Shown piece after piece: positions 19 through 22,065 of a DNA stretch of 64,000 nucleotides (its first letter is position 1; the number at the start of each line of letters is the position of its first letter). Source of the stretch: Acidobacteriaceae bacterium (GTDB taxonomy: Bacteria; Acidobacteriota; Terriglobia; Terriglobales; Acidobacteriaceae); the NCBI GenBank assembly GCA_003164635.1, contig PLTV01000391.1:870-64869 (forward strand). The letters run 5' to 3'. Under the pieces are notes generated by a model. It saw only the letters and a list, made by a program, of their open reading frames with translations, was not told the DNA's origin and ran no database searches. A program made the position numbers and the translations under genes.

Positions 19-1326
19 CTATGCGGCTATCGATTTGATCGGTGGGCGAATCAAAAGAAAGAGAAAAGCGGTAGCGAAGAGAGGCATCGATCCCGCGACC
101 AGAAAAGCTGGTGCGTAAGAATAGCGATCAACCAGAATTCCGACGACCATGGTAAAGACTGCACCAACCAGGCCCGCGGCCAGTCCGCTAAGTCCGGTAA
201 CCGTTGCGACCACATCCTGAGGAAATAGATCGGAAGGTAGAGTTAGGCCCATGGTGGACCAACTCGCATAACCCCAGAGAGCAAAGCAAATCAATCCCAT
301 CGCAGCATAAACACTATGCACACCGGCGGCGGGAATTCCTGCAAGAATTGGGAGGCAACTAATGGCGCAGACCCAGGTGCGGGCCTTCACCACGGAGACA
401 CCGCGGCGGATGCAATAGCCGGAGATCAGGCCACCTGTGAAGTTTCCGATATCGGCGGCGATAAACGGCATCCAGGCAAAAAGGGCGATGCGCTTCAGGC
501 TGAATCCGCGCGCATCGCTCAAGTACTGCGGCAACCAGAAAACATAGAACCACCAGATGGGGTCAGTGAGAGCTCGGCCAAGAACGATGCCCCATACATT
601 TCGATCTCGTGCGAGCTGAAGCCAACGCTTGGGACCACGTTCAGCGGAGACACTGGGCACTTCCTGGCCGGAGCGAATGTATGTGACCTCGCCCGGCGTC
701 ACGCGCGGATGGCGGTCGAGAGGATGATAGACGCGCAACCATACAAGCAGCCAAACAAAGCCGAGCAGTCCTGAAAAGACGAAGGCTGATCGCCACCCAA
801 AAGCCAAAGCGATCAATGGGATCGCAATTGCTGCCACGGCGCCGCCCACGCTGGAGCCACTATCGAAGATGGCCACAGCGAGACTGCGCTCCTGGCTGGG
901 AAACCATTCGGCAACCGTCTTGCTTGCTCCGGGCCAGTTAAAGCCTTCTCCAATTCCAAGGAGGAACCGGAAAGACGCGAAGCCGAAAACCGAGGAAGCG
1001 AAACCGGTGAGCATGTTGATAACTGACCAGAAGACAACTGCCAGGGCCAACCCGAGACGTGTTCCTATAGCGTCAAGAAAGATGCCACCCAGAAGCCAGG
1101 TGACTGCATACGAAATCTGAAATGCGCCAAGGATTTTAGCCAGGTCGGTGTGCGTCAGATGATACTGCGACGAGATCAACGGCGCTAAAACGGAAAAAGT
1201 TTGGCGGCTGATGTAGTTGGTCACCGTGGAGAAAAACAGTGTCCAGACGATCCACCATCGAACGCGTCCTGTGCCGCGAGGCTTCGTCGATGACTCCGCT
1301 TGCCGCATGGCGCTCAATGGCTTCAT
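19..1326 (-). CDS. MFS transporter, hexuronate/ACS type
   Basis: Inner-membrane major facilitator transporter of 435 residues, the usual length for the anion:cation symporter (ExuT/GudP-like) family, which imports sugar acids with protons. About twelve hydrophobic segments are visible. The N-terminal half carries NYISRQ (37-42), a motif-A-like GGIFLDAIGTRLG (80-92) and RFLLGIGEGFNWPG (120-133), which closely resembles ExuT proteins. It is the last gene of the minus-strand operon led by the SIS isomerase, 27 bp after the Gfo/Idh gene. The position suggests it imports the sugar released by the neighbouring glycosidases, perhaps a sugar acid or amino sugar; the substrate is inference. The first in-frame ATG is used, and no strong ribosome site decides between it and an ATG six codons later. 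Confidence 0.9.
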   Translation of the reverse strand: MKPLSAMRQAESSTKPRGTGRVRWWIVWTLFFSTVTNYISRQTFSVLAPLISSQYHLTHTDLAKILGAFQISYAVTWLLGGIFLDAIGTRLGLALAVVFWSVINMLTGFASSVFGFASFRFLLGIGEGFNWPGASKTVAEWFPSQERSLAVAIFDSGSSVGGAVAAIAIPLIALAFGWRSAFVFSGLLGFVWLLVWLRVYHPLDRHPRVTPGEVTYIRSGQEVPSVSAERGPKRWLQLARDRNVWGIVLGRALTDPIWWFYVFWLPQYLSDARGFSLKRIALFAWMPFIAADIGNFTGGLISGYCIRRGVSVVKARTWVCAISCLPILAGIPAAGVHSVYAAMGLICFALWGYASWSTMGLTLPSDLFPQDVVATVTGLSGLAAGLVGAVFTMVVGILVDRYSYAPAFLVAGSMPLFATAFLFLLIRPPIKSIAA

Positions 1327-1353: not shown

Positions 1354-2796
1354 TTATGCGACGTTCTTTCCGACGGGATGCTCGACGATCTGTTGGCTGT
1401 TTGGATCCCAGTAGAGTTTTTTGCCGCTCCAGTAGGACTGAGCCGCCATGATGCAGACCAGCGCATGCGAGAAGCCATGATCGACGGTGGCGTTTGGCTG
1501 AGTGCGCGTCTGCATCGATTGAAGCCAGTTCACAAGATGGCCTACATCGTCGTCATCCGGCCCCGTTGAGTTAGGCGCAGGCGCACCCGGGACATGGACA
1601 ATCTCCTCACCGTCTTGCGCGGGCCCTACGATGGGGAGTTTTGTGTAGACCGGCCCACCATCGAACGGATCGAATTCTTGCCTGCATCCTTCGCGGGTGA
1701 CGGTGAAGAGCGAAGCCCCTTCCCCTCCGTAATTCTCGATAGTGCCGTCGCGTCCGTGAATTCTGGAAAAGCTGCGGTAGCTGTTGCAGAAGATCGATTT
1801 ATACGTGTAGAGAAATCCCTTGGGATAGACGACGGCTGTCACGCAGGTATCGGGATTGTCCCGTCCGTCTTTCCAGGCAAATATGCCTCCGTTGGAAACG
1901 ACGCTTTCCGGGTATGCCTCGTCTGTCCAAAAATGTACCAGGTCGCATCCGTGGCTGAGCCACTGATCGAATATGCCCGAGGAAAAATCCTTATAGAGCC
2001 TGAATTCGAGATACACATGAGGATCGAAGGGACGATCCGGTTTCCCCAGCAACCACCGCTTCCAATCAGTGTCTTCTTCGCGAAGCTTCGAGGGCTGGCC
2101 ATGGAGCCATTGTTTCCACTCCATGTGGATGTCCATCAGCCTTTCCTTGTTGATACCGGTGTCCATCGGAGTGAATCTCCATCGCTCCTCATTCACATTC
2201 CATTCTTGCTCAATATGAACGATGTTGCCGATTCGCCCGGAACGAATGATATCCCGCACCGCAAGAGGGTACGGCTGGCTGCGGTGTTGCGTACCCATCT
2301 GGACAATCTGTTTTGATTGCTTTACCAGGTCGCGTGTCTCAATGGCTTCGGAGAGCACGTTGGCAAAGGGCTTCTCGACGTAGCAGTCCTTTCCCGCTCT
2401 CACCACCTCGGCACATAACTGGGCATGCTGAAAATCGCCCGTGGCAATCATCACGCCATCGAGGTCCTTCAGTTCCAGCATCTGTTCAGAGTATTTAAAG
2501 CTCTGAGGCTCGTGGTTGAATGCTCGCTTCACCTGGGCGGCCCTGTGCTCCCGCGCCAGGCTCCAGATGTCGCAGACCGCGACCACTTCCACCGGCATTT
2601 GTTTGGAGGCCAGCGTTACCATATGCACATGGCCTTCGCTGCGATCGCCGCAACCGAGTTGACCTAAGCGGATTCGATCGTTAGCTCCGAGGACACGCGC
2701 ATACGACTTGGCGCTCACGCTCGCCGCGACCATGGTGCCCGCGGCCTGCTTCATGAATGTTCTACGATCAGTTCCGGAAATCGGCTCGTCGGTCAT
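1354..2796 (-). CDS. Tat-exported Gfo/Idh/MocA family protein
   Basis: NAD(P)-binding Gfo/Idh/MocA family protein of 480 residues. A twin-arginine signal (RRTFMK, 11-16) precedes a hydrophobic stretch and a Rossmann fold with a glycine-rich loop (GQLGCGD, 45-51). EKPF at 141-144 matches the conserved EKP dinucleotide-fold motif. The Tat signal suggests it folds around its cofactor in the cytoplasm and works in the periplasm. Family members are sugar dehydrogenases; a subset (GH109) with the same fold and often a Tat signal cleaves alpha-N-acetylgalactosamine by an NAD-dependent route. Its place beside agaS- and nagB-like genes makes a glycosidase or oxidoreductase on a GalNAc-type sugar plausible, but I cannot assign GH109 from the sequence alone. 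It lies 67 bp downstream of the nagB-like gene. Confidence 0.88.
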   Translation of the reverse strand: MTDEPISGTDRRTFMKQAAGTMVAASVSAKSYARVLGANDRIRLGQLGCGDRSEGHVHMVTLASKQMPVEVVAVCDIWSLAREHRAAQVKRAFNHEPQSFKYSEQMLELKDLDGVMIATGDFQHAQLCAEVVRAGKDCYVEKPFANVLSEAIETRDLVKQSKQIVQMGTQHRSQPYPLAVRDIIRSGRIGNIVHIEQEWNVNEERWRFTPMDTGINKERLMDIHMEWKQWLHGQPSKLREEDTDWKRWLLGKPDRPFDPHVYLEFRLYKDFSSGIFDQWLSHGCDLVHFWTDEAYPESVVSNGGIFAWKDGRDNPDTCVTAVVYPKGFLYTYKSIFCNSYRSFSRIHGRDGTIENYGGEGASLFTVTREGCRQEFDPFDGGPVYTKLPIVGPAQDGEEIVHVPGAPAPNSTGPDDDDVGHLVNWLQSMQTRTQPNATVDHGFSHALVCIMAAQSYWSGKKLYWDPNSQQIVEHPVGKNVA

Positions 2797-2863: not shown

Positions 2864-3715
2864 TCATTGAGAATCCAGAATGCCGCCTAATTCATTCGCC
2901 GATTCAAGATCTAGATAAACCGTTACATCTGGATGAGTGCGCAGGATCGTCGCGGGGCATGCCGTGGAGATTTGTTCCGTGAAGGCACGCCGAACAATCG
3001 TCACCTTGCGCTTTCCCGGCACAGAGACAATCAACTTAGGCACGCGCAACAATGCTGGAATGGTGAGCGTAATTGCATGCTGCGGAACGTCCTCGACACC
3101 TTTGAACCAGCCTTCCGCGGTTTGCTGTTGCCGGCATGCCCTATCAAGCTCAACAATCTTCACATCTACAGGATCGTTGAAGTCGGCGATGGGCGGGTCA
3201 TTGAACGCCAGATGACCGTTTTCTCCGATACCGAGGAGACACAGTTGCGGATCGGCGGCACGGATCGCTTCGGCGTACGCGCGGCAAGTTCCTTCAGGAT
3301 CATTGGCGCTTCCATCAATTTCAAGGAAATGCTTCATCTTCACTTTTTCGGTCAACCTCTCGCGAAGATAACGGCGGAATGAGGCAGGATGATCGGCAGC
3401 TATCCCTACATATTCGTCCATGTGGAAGCCGCGAATCTGGCTCCAGGGAAGGCTTTCTATGCGGGTAAGGCTTTTAAGAGTCTCTATCTGCGAGGCTCCT
3501 GTAGCGAAGATGACTGCAATCGCTTCATGAGTTCTTGCTAACTCGATCAATGCTCCCGCCGCCGCCAGCGCGGCAGCGGCGCCGGCAGCTTCACTGGTTA
3601 GATGGACTTCCAACTTCGCACTCCCGACCTGGTAGTGCTTCGCTTGAACGATTTCTTCCGTCAAGTCTGACTCCTTGTCAGTTGCTCCATGTTCCTGAAG
3701 GGCGCATTCCTGCAT
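2864..3715 (-). CDS. glucosamine/galactosamine-6-phosphate deaminase-like (NagB family)
   Basis: Cytoplasmic NagB/AgaI-family protein, 283 residues against about 266 in Escherichia coli NagB. The family converts amino-sugar 6-phosphates to ketose 6-phosphates with release of ammonia. The catalytic HMDEY segment (98-102), followed by VGIAADHPASF, matches the NagB MDEYVGLxxxHPxSY block, and GIGENGHLAFNDP matches the NagB GNDGHIAFNEP active-site loop. The first 20 or so residues before the conserved core have no NagB counterpart, so the true start may be a later codon, for example the TTG at residue 18. It sits between the agaS-like gene and the Gfo/Idh gene on the same strand. With a SIS deaminase/isomerase also present, one of the two probably handles galactosamine-6-phosphate; which one is not visible. 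Confidence 0.87.
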   Translation of the reverse strand: MQECALQEHGATDKESDLTEEIVQAKHYQVGSAKLEVHLTSEAAGAAAALAAAGALIELARTHEAIAVIFATGASQIETLKSLTRIESLPWSQIRGFHMDEYVGIAADHPASFRRYLRERLTEKVKMKHFLEIDGSANDPEGTCRAYAEAIRAADPQLCLLGIGENGHLAFNDPPIADFNDPVDVKIVELDRACRQQQTAEGWFKGVEDVPQHAITLTIPALLRVPKLIVSVPGKRKVTIVRRAFTEQISTACPATILRTHPDVTVYLDLESANELGGILDSQ

Positions 3716-3864: not shown

Positions 3865-4998
3865 CTACTTGCTTGAAGTTACAGTTTCCAATGGACGAGT
3901 TGGGTGAATCGTGACGCCTTGAACTACCCGATTGATAACGCCGTCCGGGCTTGGGTTATCGGGATTTAATCCGATGCGAAGACTCAAGTGATATCCGATC
4001 AACTGCGGGCCTAGGATCTCATAAGGCGTGCGCAGCGCGTCGATCATCTGCGGAGCCACGGCTGGAATGACCTCATCGAATAAACCTTTTGAAGCACCTG
4101 GATCCACGATACCGACGATGTATCCGATCTTTTTCGCTCGGAGCTCACAGATCAAATCTTCTTCATAACGCCGGCGCAGTGGATCGCTGGATAACAGACA
4201 AAGGACAAGCGTGTCAGGTTTAACAAAGGACATCGGACCATGCCGCAGGCCCAAGTGTGTTTCTGTGATGACGGGAAAGTGGCCAGCCGTCATTTCGAGC
4301 GTCTTGAGGCCGGCCTCACGGGCCCACCCAAGCAGCGGAGATGAGGACAAAATCACGATCCGGTCATGGGTGCGATCCGCCACGCGCCGACATGCTCGAT
4401 CGATGTCGGGGAACAATGCAATCGCGCGCGCACTCAACTCGTCTACTGTGGCCGCGACAGCCTCGGCCTGGACGAGGACAAGTCCGGCCAACACCAGATT
4501 GGAAAATGAACTGGTCATGACAAGGCCCTGGTCATTCGTGCGGGGGTCTAGGGTGATGACTCCGTTGAGACTGGAGTGAGATAGTGCGCCATCTTCATTG
4601 CAGACGATTGCGAACTGCAGAATGTCAGGCCGAAGGGCGCGAACCCGCTCGACAACAGCGACACTTTCAGGACTATCGCCGGACCGGGCCACAGAGATCA
4701 CTGCATCCACATCTAGCAAGTATCGTTCGGCGTCGACCAGCAGGTCGGTGGTTGGAACGGCATAAGCCCGAGGCCACGCCGAGGCGATGGCCATAGCCGC
4801 GTAGGCCGAAGTACCTGCCCCGGTCAGCAGGACGCGCGCATGTTGAAGTTTCGCTGCGAGTTGCAGGCGGTCTGCTGCGGCATGCACCTCTTTCACCGTA
4901 ACCGGCCAGAGGTGAGGCTGACGAAGGATTTCCGGCATAGTGAATTGAGGAGCGGTCTTAGAGAGATCCTCGGATTGGGCCCTGTCCTCGTGTGACAT
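3865..4998 (-). CDS. agaS: AgaS-like SIS-domain sugar isomerase/deaminase
   Basis: Double SIS-domain protein of 377 residues, matching AgaS length (about 384). AgaS-type proteins act on galactosamine-6-phosphate, giving tagatose-6-phosphate and ammonia. The first SIS domain shows TGAGTSAY (59-66) and SVARSGDSPES (102-112), the sugar-phosphate-binding loops. The second contains HLGLRHGP (248-255), close to the AgaS LGFRHGP signature. It is first in the minus-strand operon and divergent from the GH36-like gene. A TTGACG/TATCCT promoter with an overlapping ACGAAA-N13-TTTCGT inverted repeat lies about 80-115 bp upstream. The chosen ATG is the first one in the reading frame. AgaS is the best family match; a glucosamine-6-phosphate deaminase/isomerase of the same fold is the alternative. 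Confidence 0.87.
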   Translation of the reverse strand: MSHEDRAQSEDLSKTAPQFTMPEILRQPHLWPVTVKEVHAAADRLQLAAKLQHARVLLTGAGTSAYAAMAIASAWPRAYAVPTTDLLVDAERYLLDVDAVISVARSGDSPESVAVVERVRALRPDILQFAIVCNEDGALSHSSLNGVITLDPRTNDQGLVMTSSFSNLVLAGLVLVQAEAVAATVDELSARAIALFPDIDRACRRVADRTHDRIVILSSSPLLGWAREAGLKTLEMTAGHFPVITETHLGLRHGPMSFVKPDTLVLCLLSSDPLRRRYEEDLICELRAKKIGYIVGIVDPGASKGLFDEVIPAVAPQMIDALRTPYEILGPQLIGYHLSLRIGLNPDNPSPDGVINRVVQGVTIHPTRPLETVTSSK

Positions 4999-5079
4999 CT
5001 AAACTCCATTCCCCGTTGGCGGCCACTTCCATTCGCAAGAGCTTAGCTCGCATCGACAATTGAGCCAATATGAAGCCCC

Positions 5080-5104
5080 ACGAAAGGATATAATCACATT
5101 TCGT
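5080..5104. promoter_or_regulatory. Candidate operator 1 (ACGAAA-N13-TTTCGT)
   Basis: Perfect 6-bp inverted repeat ACGAAA (5080-5085) and TTTCGT (5099-5104) overlapping the predicted agaS-like -10 element. DeoR/GlpR-type repressors commonly recognise TTCG/CGAA palindromes, and a DeoR-family gene lies at 21072-21929. Binding is inference. Confidence 0.5.
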
Positions 5105-5113
5105 AACCGTCAA
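5085..5113 (-). promoter_or_regulatory. Predicted sigma70-type promoter of the agaS-like operon
   Basis: Read on the minus strand, TTGACG (5113-5108) is followed by a 17-base spacer and TATCCT (5090-5085). Spacing is ideal and four of six -10 bases match consensus. Transcription would start about 80 bases before the agaS-like ATG. The inverted repeat at 5080-5104 covers the -10 element and most of the spacer. Confidence 0.5.
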
Positions 5114-5283
5114 GACTTTCGTTTCCGCGGCTACAAAATCGGAACCTGAAAGCGCGTCGCACCTGTTCCAGCATAAAGACCGGGATTTGCTGTGCGGCGC
5201 TGAGAGGTCGGCCGTCGCCGAGAATGCTGAATTTATGGAGATAAACGTTGCCCGTCCTGGAATTACGCAAAAAAAAAATGCCG

Positions 5284-5312
5284 TTGACAAGGCTAGCTTG
5301 CCTGCATAGCAT
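5284..5312 (+). promoter_or_regulatory. Predicted promoter of the GH36-like operon
   Basis: A perfect TTGACA (5284-5289), a 17-base spacer and TAGCAT (5307-5312; four of six consensus bases). The leader to the chosen start at 5505 would be about 185 bases. The inverted repeat at 5314-5337 begins two bases after the -10 element and so covers the expected start site. Confidence 0.55.
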
Positions 5313-5313
5313 T

Positions 5314-5337
5314 ACGAAACACGCCCGAGTGTTTCGT
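5314..5337. promoter_or_regulatory. Candidate operator 2 (9-bp perfect palindrome)
   Basis: ACGAAACAC (5314-5322), six bases, then GTGTTTCGT (5329-5337): perfect 9-bp arms. The ACGAAA and TTTCGT halves are 12 bases apart, nearly the same as at operator 1. It sits over the expected transcription start of the GH36-like operon, a typical repressor position. Confidence 0.6.
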
Positions 5338-5504
5338 TTGTCTTCGACTACAGTTCAATCGAAAGCGATCGGAGCAATGGGACGAAAACCACTCCTCAGC
5401 CGGAATGAAGGCACCCCTTATTGAAGGTATAGGTCAGAGGGTCCGGCGCAGAACGACGAAATGCGCTCCCTGGAGTGCGATCGGCAAAGGGCGAAGGGAA
5501 ATCC

Positions 5505-8012
5505 ATGAAGCATTCGTATCAAAAGAGCATGTACGCAATTCTCCTTGCCGGTGCGGTCGCATCCGGACGCCCTGCAATGGCGAGCCAGTCCGAAGCAGGC
5601 CAATCTCGCACCGAAGGCCGGGTTTTAGGGTCGATCAAAGGGAAAGGCGTCTCCGTAGAAAGCAACTCAGACGGGTCGTACTCACTCGTCCAAACCGGCA
5701 ATCCGGGTCCATTGATGCGTTCCGATGTCGAGGCGGATGTCGATTCAGAGATTCTGCGATCTACGGAATTTCCAGATCACAGGACGGTGCAGTCGGACTT
5801 TCATGACGAATTCGGGTCAGGGTCAGTGCTGACCGTAACGCATACCGGCCTTCAAGGCAAGCCGGACCTGGTTTGCACGTTTCGTGTTTATCACGATCAG
5901 CTGTGGGGCGACTTCGAAGTCAAGGTGAAAAATAGCACGGGCCGAGCCATCACGGTCCATGCGATCCGCACGATTCACGCAACCGATGCACCCGTCATCA
6001 ACTTGAACGGTCCGGTTTCCGCGGACCGTATTTTGTCAGACAGCTACAGTGAGGACCGGCCTCAGCTGGCGATTCGCGACCTAAGTGACGGACGAAAAGG
6101 GATGCAACGCGCAGTGGGAAGCCAACTTATCTATAACCGCGAGAGCGGACAGAGCTTGTTTTTCGGTGTTCTGACTTCAGATCGGTTGCTGACCATATTT
6201 CATTTGAAAGAGCGAACGACGGACGCCGGCACGCAGATCGTGTCCTATGAAGCGGAGGCAACGGGCACGACCGAGATCATGAAAGAGGAATCTCTGCGAC
6301 ATTCGCCAGCCTCCGAGCACGTAAGTCTCAGCCTGCCTGTCAACTCCGGAGATAGCTTGTCGTCTGAGCGCCTGATGTTTGCCGTGGGGTCTGATTATCA
6401 TGCCCAACTGGAGGAATACGGACACGTCATCAAGCTCCTTCATAAAGCTCGCGTTGATACTCCGAGCCCAATCGGGTGGTGGAGTTGGACAGCCTATTAC
6501 TTTGGACTCAACCAGGGAGCCGCGATTACGAATGCAGCGTGGATGGCAGAGAATCTGAGGCAGAGCGGTTATAACTACTTTCACATCGATGAAGGATACC
6601 AATATGCGCGCGGCGAATACACGACGCCCGACGTGAATTTGTTTCCTCGCGGACTTGGTTATATTGGAGACGTGGTGCGCGACAAAGGGCTCACCTTTGG
6701 AGTGTGGACAGCGCCCTTCGAAGTATCGGAGCGCGCCTGGGTATACGAAAACCATAAGGACTGGTTGCTGCACAACGCCGCGGGTCAGCTGATTCACATT
6801 GGCGACGTGACGGAACATACCGATCTGTTATATGTGCTGGACACAACCAACCCCGGCGCCCAGGAATACCTGAAGCAGACGTACAGTACGCTTTATAACT
6901 GGGGTGTTCGCTTTATCAAGATGGACTTCATGGACGATTCGGCGGTGGAAGGCGCTTACTATCGCCCCAATACAACTGCCCTTGAAGCGCAACGAATCGG
7001 GCTGAAGATAATCCGCAGCGCGGTTGGCGAAGACGTCGTTCTGGACAAGGACGGCAGTACGATGCTCAATCCGGTGGGGATCGTCGATGCTGGGCGCATC
7101 TCACAAGACACGGGACATACCTTTGGAGCTTCAAGAGATGCGGCTTCGGGTATCGCAGCACGCTACTATATGAACCGCAATTATTTTGTCGCCGATCCGG
7201 ACGCTTTCACCGTATCGACGCAGACCGTCGATGACCAGTCATGGCATGGCGGACAGCGTCAGCTAAGTCTGGAGGAAGCTAAGGTTTCAATCGCCCTGGC
7301 GGCGGTGGCAGGGGGAATGTTTGAGCTCGGAGACGACTTGCCTACCCTGGGGGCGTCGCAGGATCGCCTGTCGCTCGTGAAGAATGCTGACGTGATCGAC
7401 ATGGCCCGGCTCGGACGTTCATCCACACCCACTGATTTAATGACCTATGCGGCAAGCGATGTGCAGCCGAGTATCTTCCTGCTGAAGGAAGACACGCGTC
7501 AGTCCATGCTTACGGTCTTCAATTGGTCTGACGGAGAGCTCAAGCGCGCTATCGATCTAACCAAGCTGGGCTTGAAAGAAACGGGCAGCTACCAGATCAC
7601 TGAGGTATTCGGCGATCAAAGCTGCTGCAATTTTTCATCGGCCACGATCAACCTGAATCAGCCGGCGCACTCGGTTCGCATGTTCAAGCTGATCGACAAC
7701 GCCGTGCCCGCGACTCCGCCTCAGTTTGAAGTGGAAGCAACCAACCAGGGCAAGGCGGGAGTAACTCTGGTCTTCAGCGGCCGGGGCGTACCGACCGAAG
7801 CGCCGGTGTTTACGTACCATTGGGATTTCGGTGATGGATCGTCTGCGGATGGAGTCAAGGTGCTGCACGCCTATACACACTCCGGCGAATACGACGTGCA
7901 TGTGACCGCAACGGGTTTGGAAGCAACGACAAGTTCGAAGGACATCAAAGTAAGAATTTCAGGGAACATCGCAACTCGATTCGTTCCGGCCGACAAGAAG
8001 CGACCCGAGTGA
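5505..8012 (+). CDS. Secreted GH36/GH27-like alpha-galactosidase family protein with PKD domain
   Basis: Clan GH-D glycosidase, 835 residues from the ATG at 5505, which has an AGGGA ribosome site and begins a signal peptide; a GTG ten codons upstream has no such support. After an N-terminal beta-rich domain comes a TIM barrel starting with IGWWSW (residues 323-328), resembling the GWCSW/GWNSW start of GH36/GH27 catalytic domains. FIKMDF places the likely nucleophile at Asp474. DTGHTF and the following RYYMNRNYFVADPDAF form the second half of the active site. A PKD-like fold with YHWDFGDG lies near residues 760-810. The family hydrolyses terminal alpha-galactose or alpha-N-acetylgalactosamine; the neighbouring genes favour the latter but specificity is not visible. 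It heads the operon with the kinase, 14 bp upstream of it. Confidence 0.88.
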   Translation: MKHSYQKSMYAILLAGAVASGRPAMASQSEAGQSRTEGRVLGSIKGKGVSVESNSDGSYSLVQTGNPGPLMRSDVEADVDSEILRSTEFPDHRTVQSDFHDEFGSGSVLTVTHTGLQGKPDLVCTFRVYHDQLWGDFEVKVKNSTGRAITVHAIRTIHATDAPVINLNGPVSADRILSDSYSEDRPQLAIRDLSDGRKGMQRAVGSQLIYNRESGQSLFFGVLTSDRLLTIFHLKERTTDAGTQIVSYEAEATGTTEIMKEESLRHSPASEHVSLSLPVNSGDSLSSERLMFAVGSDYHAQLEEYGHVIKLLHKARVDTPSPIGWWSWTAYYFGLNQGAAITNAAWMAENLRQSGYNYFHIDEGYQYARGEYTTPDVNLFPRGLGYIGDVVRDKGLTFGVWTAPFEVSERAWVYENHKDWLLHNAAGQLIHIGDVTEHTDLLYVLDTTNPGAQEYLKQTYSTLYNWGVRFIKMDFMDDSAVEGAYYRPNTTALEAQRIGLKIIRSAVGEDVVLDKDGSTMLNPVGIVDAGRISQDTGHTFGASRDAASGIAARYYMNRNYFVADPDAFTVSTQTVDDQSWHGGQRQLSLEEAKVSIALAAVAGGMFELGDDLPTLGASQDRLSLVKNADVIDMARLGRSSTPTDLMTYAASDVQPSIFLLKEDTRQSMLTVFNWSDGELKRAIDLTKLGLKETGSYQITEVFGDQSCCNFSSATINLNQPAHSVRMFKLIDNAVPATPPQFEVEATNQGKAGVTLVFSGRGVPTEAPVFTYHWDFGDGSSADGVKVLHAYTHSGEYDVHVTATGLEATTSSKDIKVRISGNIATRFVPADKKRPE

Positions 8013-8026: not shown

Positions 8027-9046
8027 ATGTATTCAAAAACAAGACCTATCGCGAATGTGGACGCAACCAGAACGATGAATAGCAAAATGCGCGAAGACGC
8101 TTTCGAGCGCCCCGACGTGGCAATTGTGGGTGAACTGAATCCCGACCTGATCCTCTATGGTCTGCCAAAGGAATTGCCGGAAGAGCGTGAGGTCCTGGCC
8201 AGCGGATTTTCCCTTACGCTCGGTAGTTCTTCCGCAATTCTCGCGCACAATCTTTCGCTCCTCGGCAGCAGCGTCACGTTTAGCTCGCGCATCGGTTGCG
8301 ACGCAATGGGAGAGATGTGTTGCCAAAAGCTGAGAGAGGCGGGCGTGGAGGTTGAACGCGTGGTGAGGTCCGCCTCTGGTGCCAGCACGGGGATCACTCT
8401 GATTCTTCCGCTCACAAGCACACGGCGCATACTTACTTATCCTGGCGCGATGTTCGAAATGGGGATCGAGGACTTCGACCTGGACTATCTTGCCACAGCC
8501 AAGCATTTTCATCTATCTTCCCTTTTCTTGCATCGCAAGCTCTCACCACATATTCCGGAGTTATTCAAGGAAATGAAGCGGCGCGGGCTGACCACCTCGC
8601 TGGATACCAACGACGATCCTGAAGGCAAATGGGGAGGTGTGTTGAGCGATGTGCTCCCGCTCGTCGACGTCCTGCTCTGCACCGAGGATGAGTTAGAAAA
8701 GATTGCAAAGGGCGGAGCCGCCGTAGAGCACGTAGCGGCAGAAGTTCCGTTGCTGATCGTGAAGCGCGGAGCACGCGGGGCATCTGCCTACACCGAAGGC
8801 CGCAGGATCGACCTGCCCTCTCTCCGAGTCGAGGTGATGGATTCTGTGGGCGCCGGGGACACTTTCGATGCGGGCTTTCTTCACCAATGGGTGCGGAAAG
8901 CTGATTTGGAAACTTGTCTGGCTTACGGAAATCTGGCTGGCGGATTATCCGTGACGCGCTCCGGCGGGATTGAAGCATTCAGCGACTCTTCCTATCGCCA
9001 GAGTTTCTTCCAACGGCACTGGCGGGAAAACACACTCGTGCCCTGA
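8027..9046 (+). CDS. PfkB-family sugar kinase
   Basis: Cytoplasmic ribokinase/PfkB-family kinase, 339 residues from the first ATG; starts at Met17 or Met21 are also possible because the conserved core begins only at VAIVGELNPD (31-40). The ATP/anion-hole signature GAGDTFDAG is at 275-283, with Asp278 the expected catalytic base. The family phosphorylates sugars or sugar phosphates using ATP. Only 14 bp separate it from the GH36-like gene, so the two are almost certainly co-transcribed. Next to AgaS- and KbaZ-like proteins, a tagatose-6-phosphate kinase or a free-sugar kinase role is reasonable; the substrate cannot be read from the sequence. Confidence 0.88.
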   Translation: MYSKTRPIANVDATRTMNSKMREDAFERPDVAIVGELNPDLILYGLPKELPEEREVLASGFSLTLGSSSAILAHNLSLLGSSVTFSSRIGCDAMGEMCCQKLREAGVEVERVVRSASGASTGITLILPLTSTRRILTYPGAMFEMGIEDFDLDYLATAKHFHLSSLFLHRKLSPHIPELFKEMKRRGLTTSLDTNDDPEGKWGGVLSDVLPLVDVLLCTEDELEKIAKGGAAVEHVAAEVPLLIVKRGARGASAYTEGRRIDLPSLRVEVMDSVGAGDTFDAGFLHQWVRKADLETCLAYGNLAGGLSVTRSGGIEAFSDSSYRQSFFQRHWRENTLVP

Positions 9047-9158: not shown

Positions 9159-10493
9159 TTGCAAGGACCTAAGACATCGACCGTTGAAGAATCGTCCGCA
9201 TCGCATTCCGCAGTCGGTGAGATGTGTCGCCTGCTGGCGGAAAACCGAGCAGGCAAGAGGCGCGGCATCTACTCGGTGTGCTCGGCAAATCGTCTTGTTC
9301 TTGAGGCAGCGTTCGCTCAGGCAAAACAGGATCAAAGCCCACTATTGATTGAAGCGACCTGCAACCAGGTGAATCAAGAAGGTGGCTATACCGGGCAGAC
9401 TCCGGCGCAATTCCGAGACTATGTACATACCGTTGCCCGAGAGTGCAATTTTGTCACGGACAGGCTGATTCTCGGGGGAGATCATCTTGGTCCGAATCCT
9501 TGGCGTACTCTGCCGGCAGAAGTTGCCATGGAAAAAGCAAGTGCGATGGTTTCCGCTTACGCTGCGGCAGGGTTCAACAAGATTCACCTGGATGCGAGTA
9601 TGCGGTGTGGGGATGATCCGCGGATCCTCGCGAACGAGGAGATCGCAGAGCGGGCGGCAAAGCTATGCGAGGTGGCAGAAGCGACAACGGCCAAGACGTC
9701 CCATAAGCCGGTCTATGTGATCGGGACTGAGGTGCCCACACCAGGCGGCGCGCAGGAGGAAATGGAGATCGAAGTTACCTCCACCGCGAGCCTCAAAGAA
9801 ACACTCGATGTGCACTATCGCGCATTCGCGCGTAGGGATTTGTTGTCGGCGTGGGAGCGGATCGTTGGGGTCGTTGTTCAACCGGGAGTTGAGTTCGGCA
9901 ATGAGACCGTCGCTGACTATTTACCGGCCAAGGCTGAGGAACTGATTCAAGCGATTCTGCAACGGAGAAGCATGGTTTACGAGGCTCATTCCACCGACTA
10001 TCAAACGGCCGACTCACTACGCCAACTCGTCAGCGGCCATTTCGGCATTTTGAAAGTGGGCCCGGAGTTGACATTCATGTTGAGGGAAGGAATCTTTGGA
10101 CTTGCCCGCATTGAGGAGGAATGGGTTTCCGGAGATCGGCGCTCAGCCATCCGTTCCGTCATCGATAGAGTAATGGTTGAAAATCCTGAAAATTGGAAGG
10201 GCTATTACCACGGAAATGAGAGCCAGCTGCGCATCGCACGGGCGTACAGCTTGAGCGATCGCATTCGCTACTATTGGCCGAACGCAGAGATATCCAGGTC
10301 TCTTGCCCGCTTGTTGCAAAACCTGCGAGAGCGTCCGGCACCGCTGCCGTTGGTGGCGCAATACCTTCCTCGACAGGCAGAGGCGATTCGGGCCGGAGCG
10401 ATAAACAACAATCCTGTCGCCATCATTCATCACAAGGTGCGAGAGTCTCTTGCCCGCTATGCGGATGCATGCGGGTTGGTGCCTGGCAGGTGA
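9159..10493 (+). CDS. kbaZ: KbaZ/GatZ-like tagatose-bisphosphate aldolase accessory subunit
   Basis: 444-residue KbaZ/GatZ-family protein, close to the family length of about 420-430. In enterobacteria this subunit is needed for full activity and stability of the class II tagatose-1,6-bisphosphate aldolase KbaY/GatY; some members were once annotated as tagatose-6-phosphate kinase. The family blocks IEATCNQVNQEGGYTG, GGDHLGPNPW and HLDASM are all present. A TTG start at 9159 is chosen because GGAGG stands six bases before it and no better codon fits. It follows the kinase by 112 bp and precedes the APC permease by 60 bp. No KbaY/GatY catalytic subunit is found anywhere in the window, so the partner is either elsewhere or this protein works differently. 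Confidence 0.9.
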   Translation: MQGPKTSTVEESSASHSAVGEMCRLLAENRAGKRRGIYSVCSANRLVLEAAFAQAKQDQSPLLIEATCNQVNQEGGYTGQTPAQFRDYVHTVARECNFVTDRLILGGDHLGPNPWRTLPAEVAMEKASAMVSAYAAAGFNKIHLDASMRCGDDPRILANEEIAERAAKLCEVAEATTAKTSHKPVYVIGTEVPTPGGAQEEMEIEVTSTASLKETLDVHYRAFARRDLLSAWERIVGVVVQPGVEFGNETVADYLPAKAEELIQAILQRRSMVYEAHSTDYQTADSLRQLVSGHFGILKVGPELTFMLREGIFGLARIEEEWVSGDRRSAIRSVIDRVMVENPENWKGYYHGNESQLRIARAYSLSDRIRYYWPNAEISRSLARLLQNLRERPAPLPLVAQYLPRQAEAIRAGAINNNPVAIIHHKVRESLARYADACGLVPGR

Positions 10494-13650: not shown

Positions 13651-16600
13651 ATGAGATCAATTGAAAGAACCGAAAGCACAAAAAGCCGAATTCTCAGCCG
13701 CGTTTCGTGTAGGTCGGCATTCCTTTTCTCATCAATTGTGATTTTTCTGTGGGCATCGACCGCTGGCGCCCAGTACACCACCGCACGACTCAGTGGCACC
13801 GTTCAAGATAAAACCGGCGCGGCGGTCCCCGGCGCGGCAGTGATCGTGGAGCAGGCCGGGACCGGATACAAGCAGGAGGTCAAGTCGGGAGCCGCGGGCG
13901 AATATTTGTTCCCGAGCCTTCCCGTAGGTACTTACCAGTTGACAGTGGAAATGGCCGGCTTCAACACCTTTGTTGAAAAAGGCATCGGGTTGGAGGTCGG
14001 ACAAGCCGCCACCCAGAAGGTTACCCTGGCGATCGGAGCGATTACCCAGCAGGTCACGGTGGAAGGAAGCGCCAATCAGGTAACCACAGACGATGCGGCC
14101 ATCTCGCAGGTCATCGATGAGAAGAGCATGGAAAGCATGCCACTCAATGGCCGCGAGGCGCAACAGTTGGTGTTTCTGGTCCCTGGCGCGGTCGATGTAT
14201 CAGGACAGAACTGCGGCGCCAATTGTGAAGGCGGCGTGCTGCCTGGTGAGCAATATGCCAAAGTCAATGGCGGTGGCTCCAACGGCGTCTACTACCTGCT
14301 GGATGGCGTGGACTACAACGACATGTATATCAACACCAACTTGCCATTCCCCAGTCCCGACGCTTTGCAGGAATTCAATGTGCAGACGGATAACATGAGC
14401 GCTACTTATGGAAACGCGACGGGCGGAGTCGCCAATGTTGTAACTAAGTCGGGAACGGATCAAATCCATGGAGATGTCTTCGAATATCTTCGCAACTATG
14501 CGATGGATGCGAAAAACTACTTTGCTACTTCTCCAGACCCGCTAAGGCAGAATCAGTTTGGAGGCACGATCGGCGGACCGATTCTGAAGGGCAAGTTGTT
14601 CTATTTCGGCTCGTATCAAGGCACACGTCAGAACACCTCAGCGAACGGACTGAATTCCCAAGTACCGACTCAGGCGGAGCGTAACGGAGATTTCTCGTCT
14701 CTTCTGCCCGGTACGCCATTGACGAACCCCAACGCGAATTCGCCCTACCAATTTGACAGCAACAACATGATCAACCCTGCAGCTTTTGATCCAACGGCAC
14801 TCTATTTAATGAACCACATTCCGCTCCCCAACGACTCGCAAATGGGACCCAACTACCTGAGCTACAACGGTGCCCCGTCGATCCAGGATACGGATGAATA
14901 TCTTGTCAAGATTGATTACAACATTGGCAAGCACCATCTAAGCGGGCACTACTTCCAACTGAAATACACTGTGCCCATCATTATCCCACCGACCAGCAAC
15001 ATACTTGAGGGCAATAGTGAAGATCCACAGGTTCAGGCTCTGAAGAATATAAGCGTCGTAGACATTTACACGATCTCGCCTAACACACTCCTCAACAGTT
15101 ATTTCGGACTGACAAGGAAGACGGGACTGACGGAATCGCCGGCACCCTTCAATATAGCAGCGGCGGGCGCGAACATTGCTCAACCCACTAACTTTCCGGC
15201 GACGCTGAATGTGAATGTATCTGGAGAGTTTACGGTAGGAGAACAGCCTTCTCCGGGCACCTGGAATCACAGCGACATATCTGATCGTGAAATCGCCACC
15301 TTCATCAAGGGACCGAATGAGCTTCAATTCGGGGGCGAATGGGAACACTTGAACTTGCCGATGGGAAACTCCTATCAATCCGACGGCAATTACACCTTCG
15401 GCGGCAACCTAAGCGGAAACAACCTCTCCGACTTTTTGCTGGGAGCCGCGTCCGGCTTTGTCCAGGCAGGCGGGCTGTATTTGAACTTCAGCGGAAACGA
15501 CTGGAGTGCGTTCGTTCAAGATAATTGGCACGCGACCAAACGGCTCACCCTGAACGCCGGTGTGCGCTGGGATCCGTTCTTTCCCTATACAGATAGCGAG
15601 GGGCGCGTGGGATGCTTTGTGCCTGGAGCGCAATCGACGCGTTACCCGAACGCGCCTCAGGATCTGATCTTCGGCGGTAGTCATCATGATGCTGGATGTC
15701 CCACATCTTCGATTTACAACAACCTGAGCAATATTGGTCCGCGCGTGGGCTTCGCATATCAACTGACATCCGATGCCAAGACCAGCATTCGCGGCGGAGC
15801 CGGGTACTATTACCAGGCGCCCAATGGCGTGGCGTTTGAAGACGTTGTCGGCATTCCACCATTTGCTCCCATCGTGAGCATTACAAACACCAACTTCACT
15901 AACCCGTATACCGCTGCCGGCGTGACCAATCCGTTTCCCGCATCGTTTGGCCCAATCGATCCGGGAGCTTCGGTGACATTTCCTCAGAACATCGCATTTA
16001 CGCAAATCTTCGACAGACACTTCCGTCTTCCCCAAATCCTGACCTACAACCTGACTTTTGAGCATGATTTTGGCGCGGGTCTGTTCACACGACTCGAATA
16101 CGCGGGAAATCACGGTGCGCACCTTGGTGGCACCGGAGATCAGGAGGCAGGACTACTGCAGTTGAACCCATCCGTTTATATTCCGGGGCAGTCGACGGAG
16201 GATAACATTCAATCGCGTCTTCTCTATCCAAATTACGGTTTCATCGCTTCGATCAACTCCGGAGTCAACAGTAACTACAATGCCGGCCAGTTTGAGCTCG
16301 AAAAGCGGTTGAGTCACGGTCTTGCCTTCCAAACGAACTTCACCTGGTCGCGAGCATTGAATAACTATGGTCCCAATGGACAGCCGGGGATTTTCGGAGT
16401 TTACGGAATCAACACTTGCGGGTGCGGCCGCTCGCTTGATTACGGTCCAGACGCCGGTGACGATACCAAAGTCTTCAGATTTTCAGGGAACTATGCCTTT
16501 CCCCGTTTACGTTCGAAAGGGATCGTGGATCAGGCGATCAACGGATGGAACCTGAGTGCCATTACAAACTGGCAGACTGGTTTTCCCTTTACGTCGTTCG

Positions 16601-17001
16601 CCGAGGACGACAATTCCTTCAGTGCGATGGGGAATGACCGTCCTGACATCACGGTTGCAAACATAAGCGACACGCAGCTGAGCACGAAGCGCTCCCACTC
16701 TGCTTTGATTAATGAGTGGTTCAACACGGCTGATTTTGTTCCAAATGCGATTGGTACTTACGGGAACATCGGCAAGAATTCTCTTCGCGGCCCGAAGCTC
16801 TTCACAACAGATTTGGCACTTTTGAAGAACGGAAAGATCGGTGATCGCGCCAACTACGAGTTCCGTGCGGAGTTTTACAATGCTTTCAACAACGTCAATT
16901 TCGGCGCTCCCGATGCAGGGCTTCAAGACAGCAACTTTGGGCAAATCAGTTCCGCCAACGATCCTCGCATTCTCCAGATGGCTTTGAAGGTGGAGTTCTA
17001 A
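13651..17001 (+). CDS. TonB-dependent receptor, Oar-like with carboxypeptidase-regulatory domain (1)
   Basis: Outer-membrane receptor of 1116 residues. A signal peptide ending near AGAQ is followed by a carboxypeptidase-regulatory-like beta sandwich (about 43-125: GTVQDKTGAAVPGAAV, GEYLFPSLPVGTYQLTV), a plug domain, and a long 22-strand-type barrel ending in the aromatic residue Phe, as outer-membrane barrels do. In Acidobacteriota such receptors are numerous and are thought to import oligosaccharides and other large substrates with TonB energy; the substrate here is unknown. It lies next to the amino-sugar locus, with a promoter and CGAAA/TTTCG repeat upstream that match those of the sugar operons, so joint control is likely. 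A large hairpin follows its stop codon. Confidence 0.92.
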   Translation: MRSIERTESTKSRILSRVSCRSAFLFSSIVIFLWASTAGAQYTTARLSGTVQDKTGAAVPGAAVIVEQAGTGYKQEVKSGAAGEYLFPSLPVGTYQLTVEMAGFNTFVEKGIGLEVGQAATQKVTLAIGAITQQVTVEGSANQVTTDDAAISQVIDEKSMESMPLNGREAQQLVFLVPGAVDVSGQNCGANCEGGVLPGEQYAKVNGGGSNGVYYLLDGVDYNDMYINTNLPFPSPDALQEFNVQTDNMSATYGNATGGVANVVTKSGTDQIHGDVFEYLRNYAMDAKNYFATSPDPLRQNQFGGTIGGPILKGKLFYFGSYQGTRQNTSANGLNSQVPTQAERNGDFSSLLPGTPLTNPNANSPYQFDSNNMINPAAFDPTALYLMNHIPLPNDSQMGPNYLSYNGAPSIQDTDEYLVKIDYNIGKHHLSGHYFQLKYTVPIIIPPTSNILEGNSEDPQVQALKNISVVDIYTISPNTLLNSYFGLTRKTGLTESPAPFNIAAAGANIAQPTNFPATLNVNVSGEFTVGEQPSPGTWNHSDISDREIATFIKGPNELQFGGEWEHLNLPMGNSYQSDGNYTFGGNLSGNNLSDFLLGAASGFVQAGGLYLNFSGNDWSAFVQDNWHATKRLTLNAGVRWDPFFPYTDSEGRVGCFVPGAQSTRYPNAPQDLIFGGSHHDAGCPTSSIYNNLSNIGPRVGFAYQLTSDAKTSIRGGAGYYYQAPNGVAFEDVVGIPPFAPIVSITNTNFTNPYTAAGVTNPFPASFGPIDPGASVTFPQNIAFTQIFDRHFRLPQILTYNLTFEHDFGAGLFTRLEYAGNHGAHLGGTGDQEAGLLQLNPSVYIPGQSTEDNIQSRLLYPNYGFIASINSGVNSNYNAGQFELEKRLSHGLAFQTNFTWSRALNNYGPNGQPGIFGVYGINTCGCGRSLDYGPDAGDDTKVFRFSGNYAFPRLRSKGIVDQAINGWNLSAITNWQTGFPFTSFAEDDNSFSAMGNDRPDITVANISDTQLSTKRSHSALINEWFNTADFVPNAIGTYGNIGKNSLRGPKLFTTDLALLKNGKIGDRANYEFRAEFYNAFNNVNFGAPDAGLQDSNFGQISSANDPRILQMALKVEF

Positions 17002-17118: not shown

Positions 17119-19092
17119 ATGGACTCCGCGAGCGCGAGACGCAGTCTAATAACTGTCGGAATACTGCCCTTCCTGTTCGGGACGGAGGTGGTTTCGATTT
17201 ATGCCCAGGTTAGCAAGCCTTACGTGGAGCAGGCACTTGCGCAGGCCTCGCGGGACGTTCCGTCGCGGCAGTATCAACTTCAGGAATTCTTATTGAAGCG
17301 GATCCCTCAGCTGCCCGTCCCCGCCACGCCCGCTTCATGGAGTGCGGAAGAGGAGCGAATCCGCAAGCACGTACTTGATGATCTTGTTTATCACGGCTGG
17401 CCTCGTGATTGGATCGATGCCGCTCCACAATTCGAGGAGATGGGGATTATCGAGACCACTCACGGATATCGAATTCACAAACTGCGTTTTGAAGTTGTGC
17501 CCGGCTTCCACTCTACCGCGCTTCTTTATGAGCCGACAAAGATTGTCGGTCGTGTTCCCGCCATTTTGAACCTGCTCGGACATGAGCCGGATGGGATAGG
17601 GGTGGAATACGAACAGAAGCGTTGCATCAATTTTGCCAAGCGCGGCATCATCGCCCTGGACCTTGAGTTCATTGGTTTCGGTGAGCTCGCGAATCCGGGA
17701 AACGCGCACGATTTTGCGTCCCAATTGAACCTCGTCGGTTCGAATGCGCTTGGGCTCTTCTATCTTTCCATGCGGCGAGGATTGGATTACCTGAGTGGGT
17801 TGCAGCAGGTCGATACGTCAAGGATCGGGGTAACCGGTCTTTCGGGTGGTGGATGGCAAACGGTGATGCTAAGCGCTCTGGACCCGAGAGTCGCGGTCGC
17901 GGTGGAAGTGGCCGGAATCGGTTCGCGCGAATCGAACCTCACCCATCCGGTGGATACGGACGAAACTGAAGAGGACGCGCCTGATTTGATGCAGCAGCAA
18001 GACTATCCTGAACTGATTGCATTAAGAGCGCCTCGCCCCACGATGGAGATTCATAACGGCGCGGATAGCTGCTGTTTTCGCGCGCCGTTGGTGAAGCCCT
18101 ATATCTATGACCAGGTGAAGCCATTTTTCCAACTCTACGGGGCTCCAGATAACCTGGCCTGGAGCGAGAACTTGTACCCCGGAACGCACAATTATCAGTT
18201 GGAAAACCGCAATCAAGCCTATCGATTCTTCAGCACGTATTTCAAATTGCCTTTGCTGGATGGCGAGATTTACAGCGACGATGAGATTCGGACGCCGCAG
18301 GAGCTTTCCATCGGGGTGCCTGCCGATAATCTGACCTTCGTCACTTTGGCGAGACACTTGGCAAAGCAGATCCATCATGAATCGCCGTCAACTGATAGTG
18401 AAGCGCGCCAGGCGTGGACAAAGGCAGAACGACAGAAACTGAAATCTGTGGTCCGCTATGAGCCGGTGTCCATCGTACGGGCCTTGCGCGTGGATAATGA
18501 CCGAGCCTTCGATTTTCGCACCCTGTCTTATCGTTTCGATTTTTCCAATGAACTCAGTGCCAACGGCATCTTGCTCCGCGAAGAAGCTGCCCCGGAGGAC
18601 GCGGCGGCGACCATCGTGCTCGATGACAAAGGCTACAAAGCTGCGACAAATCGGGTTACTCAGTACCTCGACCGCGGCGAACAGGTCCTGGCGCTCGATC
18701 TATTTTTCAATGGTGACTTATTGCCCGATCGCGGATCGTGGGAATTACTGACAGACAGCAGCGGTGCTCGTCCGTTGGGTTTAGAGGCCGCGCAGTTAGT
18801 AGCTATTGCACGCTGGCTGCATTCCACTACGGGAAAGCCCGTACAGGTGGAAACAGTTGGAATTCGCAATCAGGTCATTGCTTTGACCGCCGCCGCCATC
18901 GCGCCCGAGGACTTTTCGTTGGTTACGAGCGCAAATGGCATGAAAACCCTGAGCTATTTGATTGATACGCCGGTCCCGTTTCGCTCTGCGCCCGAGCTTT
19001 TTTGTCTCGATCTTTACCGTCACTTCGACATCAATACGCTCGAAGCTCTGGCGGCTCCCACAAAGATCGTCGCCCTCAGTAGTCTGCGTTGA
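17119..19092 (+). CDS. Secreted alpha/beta hydrolase, acetyl-xylan-esterase/dienelactone-hydrolase-like
   Basis: 657-residue hydrolase with an N-terminal hydrophobic segment (about 8-30) likely to be a signal peptide. The alpha/beta fold occupies roughly 115-375. The nucleophile elbow is GLSGGG with Ser242; Asp316 (HNGADSCC) and His357 (PGTHNYQ) are good candidates for the rest of the triad. Related proteins are esterases that deacetylate plant polysaccharides. The last 280 residues form a second domain that I do not recognise, making the protein about twice the usual size. It starts 117 bp after the TonB receptor gene, separated by the large hairpin, and is followed 129 bp later by the PQQ-type propeller gene. 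A role in removing ester groups from an imported or extracellular glycan is inference. Confidence 0.8.
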   Translation: MDSASARRSLITVGILPFLFGTEVVSIYAQVSKPYVEQALAQASRDVPSRQYQLQEFLLKRIPQLPVPATPASWSAEEERIRKHVLDDLVYHGWPRDWIDAAPQFEEMGIIETTHGYRIHKLRFEVVPGFHSTALLYEPTKIVGRVPAILNLLGHEPDGIGVEYEQKRCINFAKRGIIALDLEFIGFGELANPGNAHDFASQLNLVGSNALGLFYLSMRRGLDYLSGLQQVDTSRIGVTGLSGGGWQTVMLSALDPRVAVAVEVAGIGSRESNLTHPVDTDETEEDAPDLMQQQDYPELIALRAPRPTMEIHNGADSCCFRAPLVKPYIYDQVKPFFQLYGAPDNLAWSENLYPGTHNYQLENRNQAYRFFSTYFKLPLLDGEIYSDDEIRTPQELSIGVPADNLTFVTLARHLAKQIHHESPSTDSEARQAWTKAERQKLKSVVRYEPVSIVRALRVDNDRAFDFRTLSYRFDFSNELSANGILLREEAAPEDAAATIVLDDKGYKAATNRVTQYLDRGEQVLALDLFFNGDLLPDRGSWELLTDSSGARPLGLEAAQLVAIARWLHSTTGKPVQVETVGIRNQVIALTAAAIAPEDFSLVTSANGMKTLSYLIDTPVPFRSAPELFCLDLYRHFDINTLEALAAPTKIVALSSLR

Positions 19093-21071: not shown

Positions 21072-21929
21072 CTACACGAGGATTAGATTGCAGCCTACGG
21101 CGCGCAGTTTCGTCTGGACCTCCTCGTCGAGGCCGGTATCGCTGATGATGGTGTCGATCTCGTTAAATGGCGCTATGCGGGTCATGCTGCGCTTTGAAAA
21201 CTTGCTGGAATCGGCGACCAAAATGATCTCGCGCGAAATCCGAAGCATCGCCCTGTTGACCATTGTTTCTTCCAAGTTTGCTCCGCTCACACCAAAATCC
21301 AAATCACATCCGGCCCCGCTGAGAAACAACTTGTCTGCCGAAAACTGATCGAACATTTCCTCGGTGAAGCGTCCGCTAATTGATGCGGATTCTCCACGCA
21401 CCGTCCCTCCAACAATGAAGACCTGTATGCCGCGCGCATCCAACAGCTCCGCGGCGATATTTACACCGTTGGTGATGACCTGAACGCCCTGCAACTTCTT
21501 TATCTGCCGGGCGATTTCGAGCGTGGTGGTGCCTGAATCCAGAATGATTGTTTCGCCATCGTGGACTAGGGAGACTGCCATGGCCCCGATGCGCCGCTTC
21601 TCGTCGGAAAACGCCTTCAGACGCTCCACAACAGGCGATTCGCGCAGGATTTTATCCGGCAGTACCGCTCCGCCATGCGAGCGAAGCACCAGACCCCGCT
21701 GATGAAGTTCATTTAGATCGTTGCGGATTGTGACCGCGGATGTCTTGAAGCGTTTGGTTAGCAGGTTGACTTTCACTCGACCTGCACTGCGTACGATCTG
21801 CAGGATCTGTGTCCGCCTCTCCTCAGCCATCATTCCATCTATTGGCGACTCGGAAACAGAGGTTTCCATGGTCGGTTCGTGGTGGATTGTTTTCTCGGCC
21901 GGATCCAATATCGGGCTGTCCTTCGCCAT
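21072..21929 (-). CDS. DeoR-family transcriptional regulator
   Basis: DeoR/GlpR/AgaR-type repressor of 285 residues from the ATG at 21929, preceded by GAGG at six bases; a TTG two codons earlier lacks this. The N-terminal winged helix-turn-helix is ERRTQILQIVRSAGRV...SAVTIRNDLNELHQRGLVLRSHGGAVL, including the family RxDLxxLxxxGxxxRxHGGA signature. The C-terminal sensor domain shows ILDSGTTTLEIA, the sugar-phosphate-binding loop of DeoRC domains. About 30 residues before the helix-turn-helix are a non-conserved extension. Such proteins repress sugar operons and release DNA when a phosphorylated sugar binds. It is the natural candidate to bind the CGAAA/TTTCG inverted repeats upstream of the sugar operons, receptor 1 and the gene at 22066-23634. 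Confidence 0.92.
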   Translation of the reverse strand: MAKDSPILDPAEKTIHHEPTMETSVSESPIDGMMAEERRTQILQIVRSAGRVKVNLLTKRFKTSAVTIRNDLNELHQRGLVLRSHGGAVLPDKILRESPVVERLKAFSDEKRRIGAMAVSLVHDGETIILDSGTTTLEIARQIKKLQGVQVITNGVNIAAELLDARGIQVFIVGGTVRGESASISGRFTEEMFDQFSADKLFLSGAGCDLDFGVSGANLEETMVNRAMLRISREIILVADSSKFSKRSMTRIAPFNEIDTIISDTGLDEEVQTKLRAVGCNLILV

Positions 21930-22065
21930 TCTCAACCTCGATCTTCCCTGCTATAGCCCCGCTAATCCAGTTTAATTGTCAAAATGAGGGAACGAGAAGA
22001 AAAGAAAAGAGACCGAAGAACAATCGGCAATGTTGAAGTACTTCGTTCCATTGCAATCAAACCTG

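Follow-up and report, generated by a model that had tools for sequence, protein, structure and literature searches.

A twin-arginine Gfo/Idh/MocA protein from a conserved hexosamine gene context in Acidobacteriaceae lies outside GH109

The window, a 64,000-nucleotide stretch of contig PLTV01000391.1 from an Acidobacteriaceae bacterium, carries near its left end a gene cluster with two divergent arms (Table 1). The leftward run reads AgaS-NagB-subject-MFS, with gaps of 149, 67 and 27 nt, and the divergent rightward arm encodes a GH36-type enzyme, a PfkB kinase and a KbaZ-like protein. The subject, the third gene of the leftward run, is an open reading frame with exact coordinates and an ATG start. 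The true start of the GH36-type gene may be an ATG at 5505, after which a signal-peptide-like stretch was read by eye. The KbaZ-like protein is the so-called non-catalytic aldolase subunit, and no catalytic KbaY was noticed in the cluster; across the genome, the model for catalytic KbaY (TIGR01858, cut-off 443.55) scored 21.9 bits at best, a result that says little in an assembly approximately 70% complete. Beyond the KbaZ-like gene lie an APC permease and then, on the opposite strand, an M20 peptidase. The AXE1-like alpha/beta hydrolase further along shares 55–65% identity with proteins in seven other loci, and in several loci a relative of it is encoded immediately downstream of the subject's ortholog. 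Two other proteins encoded in the window gave no Pfam match: that at 19105–21045, with 74–77% identity to proteins in L054, L057 and L071, and that at 22066–23634, with 78% identity to one protein in L095. A GH106 alpha-L-rhamnosidase of 1117 amino acids occupies 50936–54289.

Table 1 Coordinates of the features discussed (window positions unless another locus is given)
Feature	Position	Strand	Basis
Subject, Gfo/Idh/MocA oxidoreductase with twin-arginine start, 480 aa	1354..2796	-	ORF, Pfam, AlphaFold2 model
Twin-arginine stretch DRRTFMK, residues 10–16	2749..2769	-	Read directly from translation
EKP motif, residues 141–143 (Lys142)	2368..2376	-	Translation and family alignment
DQWLSH motif, residues 277–282; Gln278 replaces the usual Asp, His282 kept	1951..1968	-	Alignments
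Asp415 to His420, near the GH109 GGHGG-loop part of the chain	1537..1554	-	Family alignment; register versus GH109 uncertain
MFS transporter; best NCBIfam D-galactonate transporter (TIGR00893), 240.8 bits, below cut-off 395	19..1326	-	
NagB-like hexosamine-6-phosphate deaminase (PF01182)	2864..3715	-	Pfam, NCBIfam
AgaS-family SIS-domain protein (PF01380); best NCBIfam agaS_fam, 245.2 bits, below cut-off 529.2	3865..4998	-	
476-nt region separating the two divergent arms of the cluster	4999..5474	.	
GH36-type (melibiase-like) enzyme with PKD domain	5475..8012	+	Pfam
PfkB sugar kinase	8027..9046	+	Pfam, NCBIfam
KbaZ/GatZ-like tagatose-bisphosphate aldolase subunit	9159..10493	+	TIGR02810, 598.2 bits, above cut-off 568.8
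TonB-dependent receptor-like outer membrane protein	13651..17001	+	Pfam
Alpha/beta hydrolase (AXE1-like)	17119..19092	+	Sequence comparison with other loci
DeoR-family regulator	21072..21935	-	80–83% identity to DeoR proteins of loci L054, L055 and L057
GH109 of the window's genome, on another contig	L052 1207–2565	-	C-terminal domain search

The initial annotation had listed for the subject a Tat signal, a dinucleotide fold, an EKP motif and a run with agaS- and nagB-like genes, and each of these features is present, the two neighbours lying on the same strand. The N-terminus, MTDEPISGTDRRTFMKQAAG, is of the twin-arginine type (D10-R-R-T-F-M-K16), the pattern RR.[FL] was counted in 84 of the 87 rows of the subject family's alignment, and the window's genome encodes TatC; from these we infer export through Tat. 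Three Pfam models match above their cut-offs, PF01408 with 46.2 bits, PF22725 with 37.6 and PF02894 with 28.4. The protein is thus a member of the Gfo/Idh/MocA superfamily, with the PF01408 Rossmann domain, an alpha/beta C-terminal domain and fold matches reaching a Z of 36.5. The AlphaFold2 model has a pLDDT of 87.0 and a pTM of 0.87, with residues 1–38 below 50. Residues 226–253 (window 2038–2121) contain EWKQWLHGQP and then DWKRWLLGKP, which together resemble an internal repeat; the mid-clade protein of locus L029 lacks the first of the two copies.

Relatives were gathered by a scan of one genome per species over 84,980 species, the best 80 of 148 relatives being kept. The family alignment comprises the window protein and 86 of 89 candidates (L085, L094 and L102 left out; the candidate list itself excludes the eight loci L063, L079, L080, L081, L092, L131, L104 and L113), sorted into 59 close, 17 mid and 11 distant rows. 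Lys142 is kept in 86 of the 87 rows and His282 in all of them; by column, strict EKP occurs in 85, with Arg for Lys in one row and Ala for Pro in another. A DQW.(S/V)H-type motif is likewise found in 85 rows, and Gln occupies position 278 in 85 (close 59/59, mid 17/17, distant 9/11). The aspartate of the D-x3-H pair, a usual but non-defining feature of the superfamily, is absent from the subject, where Gln278 aligns with the Asp of the Alistipes enzyme AL3 described below. Neither this Asp nor the EKP Lys defines the superfamily, for GH109 lacks the Lys, reads LYPTH and still matches PF01408. Further along the chain, every one of the 76 close and mid rows has Asp415 and His420, as against 2 and 3 of the 11 distant rows; the two residues lie near the part of the chain that holds the GH109 loop in a profile alignment that is loose at this point. 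The subject belongs to a conserved, uncharacterised family with the signature EKP ... DQWxSH; among the titles listed in a search of open-licence papers, for a clade that has no searchable name, none concerns it.

The gene's surroundings were counted with five close relatives added to the scan set, leaving out the window's own locus and six duplicate-contig loci (L063, L079, L080, L081, L092 and L131). Loci with an ortholog at 58% identity or more were taken as orthologous (n = 63) and set beside related clades at 43–57% identity (17 loci) and 33–42% identity (9 loci); the loci differ in length and several end at contig ends. A NagB-like gene occurs somewhere in 35 of the 63 orthologous loci, versus 1 of 17 and none of 9 in the two related clades, and in 25 of the 63 it lies directly upstream on the same strand. 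The association of the gene with NagB exceeds chance, the hexosamine link is real, and it is conserved in related Acidobacteria; the GalNAc-type surroundings that had been proposed therefore stand, as a galactosamine or hexosamine context. NagB is not present in the remaining 28 loci, some of which are cut by contig ends, and other genes of the cluster are rarer among the 63: MFS in 26, GH36-type in 13, AgaS in 11, PfkB in 6 and KbaZ in 4. The slot after the subject's ortholog varies, holding an amidohydrolase_2 protein, an alpha/beta hydrolase or a GH36-type enzyme. The compact form in locus L086 consists of NagB, the ortholog, an amidohydrolase lipoprotein and MFS; further on, the other strand carries another Gfo-type gene as well as an ApbE relative. 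Glycosidases are also encoded close by in other loci with NagB, L070 having a GH28 and L098 a GH38. Within the genus the gene is sporadic, occurring in 17 of 80 genomes with the window's own counted; Edaphobacter lichenicola (strain X5P2, locus L057) and Granulicella mallensis are cultivated species with an ortholog. In a related Gfo/Idh clade (33–42% identity, DQWLVHQID; L028, L031–L033 and L035–L037) the gene adjoins one of approximately 350–375 amino acids, which in L035, where it was scanned, is DUF6807 (example coordinates L035 7753–9123 and 9116–10165).

The step from this context to a GH109-type enzyme cleaving alpha-GalNAc linkages, which the initial annotation had taken, does not hold. 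GH109 and the subject share the superfamily, a GalNAc context and, in places, the same cluster, and the profiles of the two groups align with 99.6% probability, as expected of homologous groups; the family profile also matches the N-terminal domain of the solved GH109 enzymes 6T2B (9.1e-16) and 2IXA (1.1e-12). Together with the twin-arginine start and the GalNAc-type neighbours, this is what speaks for a true GH109 alpha-N-acetylgalactosaminidase, a reading that we regard as very improbable. PF21252, the GH109 C-terminal domain, has no match in the subject up to 0.001, and neither a GGHGG-type loop nor YPTHG(L/V)GP occurs in any of the 87 family rows. Both solved GH109 enzymes contain YPTHG(L/V)GP and the loop, as GGHGG in 6T2B and GAGHGG in 2IXA; Teze is said to have studied the GGHGG loop in 2020. 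The EKP motif had been counted in favour of GH109, but it is a dehydrogenase-type motif and argues against that family, because the solved enzymes lack the Lys and read EVP or EVS at this position (VEVP in 6T2B, MEVS in 2IXA). Of 12 GH109 rows taken from related genomes, none contains E-(K/R)-P or the DQW motif, 12 contain the loop and 10 YPTHG(L/V)GP; because E(V/I)P(A/G) and HGG had served as the selection patterns for these rows, they are not independent for the EKP position and the loop, so that the solved enzymes are the independent test of the EKP and loop difference. Of the 12 GH109 loci fetched, 11 passed the pattern selection, and L049, which did not, was excluded. In a tree of 57 hand-picked rows, built by a quick method and with long branches flagged, the 12 GH109 rows lie on one side of a branch with an SH-aLRT of 100 and 20 target rows on another with 99.

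GH109 genes proper exist alongside the family. The window's genome has its own on another contig (Table 1), divergent from a neighbour that has no Pfam match and on inspection by eye resembles NagX, and at least 4 of 80 loci (L054, L057, L091 and L119, the last with two copies) have GH109 and the subject's homolog within one stretch. The cluster is GalNAc-like, and where GH109 is present it is a gene separate from the subject. We also considered a complementary distribution, with the gene replacing GH109, and rejected it: the six genomes with an ortholog at 73% identity or more (G000, which is the window's, G001, G013, G019, G029 and G032) comprise two with GH109 (G000 and G001) and four without, with no pattern. 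With PF21252 and the GGHGG loop absent and the tree position apart, assignment to GH109 is refuted, while the Gfo/Idh-type protein, its Tat-like start and its conserved hexosamine context remain from the earlier interpretation. Of 60 related genomes, 13 have the PF21252 domain, with no more than two copies per genome; a genome survey, in the portion available, describes GH109 together with GH74 as the GH families most prevalent in Acidobacteria (PMC5900883), with genomes and method that differ from those used here.

Among solved sequences, the closest to the subject are those of the Alistipes glucoside 3-dehydrogenase AL3 (8tdf and 8tdh; phmmer 2e-10, profile 1e-31). The profile alignment extends into the C-terminal domain, where the two share a W...G.P.RP...FR..DF..G....H stretch and the conserved His; the subject's C-terminal part alone (281 amino acids) has no match to PDB sequences up to E = 1. 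The best NCBIfam model is the BT_2158_fam glycoside 3-dehydrogenase (NF058561), at 68.8 bits, far below its cut-off of 750 and over residues 11–197 only. Inositol dehydrogenase models score close by at 65.2 bits, and over seven aligned family members the best E values are 2.4e-21 for inositol dehydrogenase and 1.5e-20 for BT_2158_fam. Where AL3 has Asp four residues before the His, the subject has Gln, and it lies in a hexosamine context, whereas BT2158 is a periplasmic enzyme serving disaccharides and glucosinolates, according to the accessible part of its description (PMC11300592).

Structure comparison places the predicted model within the superfamily at large. The matches include the WlbA dehydrogenase (Z 36.5), the GH188 structure 8qc8 (36.2), levoglucosan dehydrogenase (35.8), glucose-fructose oxidoreductase (GFOR; 1rye 34.2, 1h6d 34.1), aldose-aldose oxidoreductase (5a02, 33.3) and AL3 (33.3); in Foldseek the top match is a 1,5-anhydrofructose reductase, and the first ten rows include GH188 and AL3. 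GH109 is absent from the 50 matches listed in either structure search, which is no evidence of a difference. Dehydrogenases and GH188 tie, and since the fold matches the superfamily at large, it does not choose a reaction; with the values for WlbA, GH188 and AL3 so close together, we discarded structure comparison as a means of telling a dehydrogenase from a glycosidase.

We tentatively favour, with a probability of roughly 0.4, an exported, NAD-carrying Gfo/Idh/MocA oxidoreductase of a galactosamine or hexosamine cluster whose substrate would be an amino sugar or a glycoside of it, with C3 as the probable site of action. This position appears likeliest because it is the one on which both GH188 and the closest exported kin act. 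The protein would fold with NAD in the cytoplasm and leave through Tat, as GFOR exits the cytoplasm with its cofactor bound. Outside, Lys142 and His282 would bind and deprotonate a ring hydroxyl of the amino sugar or glycoside, probably that at C3, and hydride would pass from the sugar to NAD. The activated product could then go to an exported hydrolase encoded nearby, which depending on the species would be the GH36-type enzyme, an alpha/beta hydrolase or an amidohydrolase, and after uptake of the amino sugar, NagB, AgaS, PfkB and KbaZ would be among the enzymes that degrade it. The motifs, kin and neighbours are consistent with a hydride-transferring enzyme on a hexosamine or its glycoside: the AL3 match, BT_2158_fam as the best model, the near-invariant Lys142 and invariant His282, the hexosamine context and TatC point this way. 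Counting against it are the distance of the BT_2158_fam score from its cut-off, the comparable scores of inositol dehydrogenase models, Gln278 in place of Asp and the loci that lack NagB. Breakdown by way of 3-keto glycans was reportedly described by Nasseri and others in Nature in 2024. The neighbour proteins scanned, which are part of all neighbours, include no 3-keto-glycoside hydrolase of the DUF1080 type, and the two copies in the window's genome are both on other contigs; nor was a route for re-oxidising NADH outside the cytoplasm identified. Both points count against a plain dehydrogenase.

An exported enzyme that does not recycle its NAD should be redox-neutral, and this consideration speaks for the alternative of an NAD-dependent glycosidase outside GH109, which would transiently oxidise C3, eliminate the aglycone, add water and reduce the product with the same NADH, releasing a hexosamine. 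We consider it a doubtful but substantial alternative. GH188, an NAD-dependent sulfoquinovosidase (SqgA, PDB 8qc2–8qc8), is among the best structural matches, and in the part of the source available its Lys107 and His193 contact O3, Glu189 contacts O4 and His321 stands at O1 (PMC10755693). The ArSqgA pair at O3 may correspond to Lys142 and His282, a tentative likeness by motif position. Four residues before the His, however, Glu189 of GH188 gives way to Gln278 in the subject, and the second catalytic His, His321 in GH188 and His404 in GH109 by the same partial account (PMC10755693), has no placed counterpart in the subject, where Asp415 and His420 are no more than candidates. The subject's cluster contains no gene recognised as one for sulfoquinovose. 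Among the listed neighbours of the L086 run no glycosidase was recognised by eye, a point in favour of this reading, but the window already has its GH36-type enzyme, L070 its GH28 and L098 its GH38, and dehydrogenases cannot be told from glycosidases by their structural Z values. In its fuller form, which we hold to be more speculative, the EKP...DQWxSH clade would be an undescribed family of NAD-dependent glycosidases with a mechanism like that of GH4, GH109 and GH188, Asp415 or His420 replacing the His of the GGHGG loop; it would release hexosamines from glycoconjugates outside the cell and form, with NagB, a secreted hydrolase and MFS, a compact cassette with which soil Acidobacteria scavenge amino sugars.

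The same frequent amidohydrolase_2 or alpha/beta hydrolase in the slot after the gene could instead serve an oxidoreductase acting at C1, like glucose-fructose or aldose-aldose oxidoreductase, that would turn an (amino) sugar into a lactone outside the cytoplasm, for the neighbouring hydrolase to open and the MFS protein to import as the acid. The fold of these enzymes is alike (Z 33–34) and the MFS protein resembles D-galactonate transporters; the transporter score, though, is below the cut-off (Table 1), identity over aligned residues is 14–16%, and nothing identifies the hydrolases as lactonases, the L070 amidohydrolase having no match to a solved structure in the PDB up to 0.01 and no NCBIfam match. 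NagB and AgaS, moreover, act on amino-sugar phosphates, not aldonates, and we judge this reading unlikely. An enzyme unrelated to glycoside cleavage, be it a redox-neutral epimerase, for example one inverting C4 between GalN- and GlcN-type sugars, or some other oxidoreductase of carbohydrates or cyclitols, would explain both the frequent pairing with NagB and the variable pairing with hydrolases, and the inositol dehydrogenase models do score near BT_2158_fam; with no epimerase noticed among the matches listed, we take it to be quite unlikely. The oxidoreductase probably acting at C3 is the reading that we carry forward.

The published prevalence of GH109 in Acidobacteria, as given in the available portion of the survey (PMC5900883), may include other Gfo/Idh proteins, which we offer as a lead and not as a refutation. 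NAD-dependent glycosidase families are few, those named in the part of the source at hand being GH4, 109, 177, 179 and 188 (PMC11701701), and a true glycosidase at this locus would add one more beside them. If the subject is a true 3-dehydrogenase, the 3-keto route would be extended to amino sugars in soil bacteria. Either way, fold, Tat start and context alone are insufficient to call Gfo/Idh proteins beside GalNAc genes GH109.
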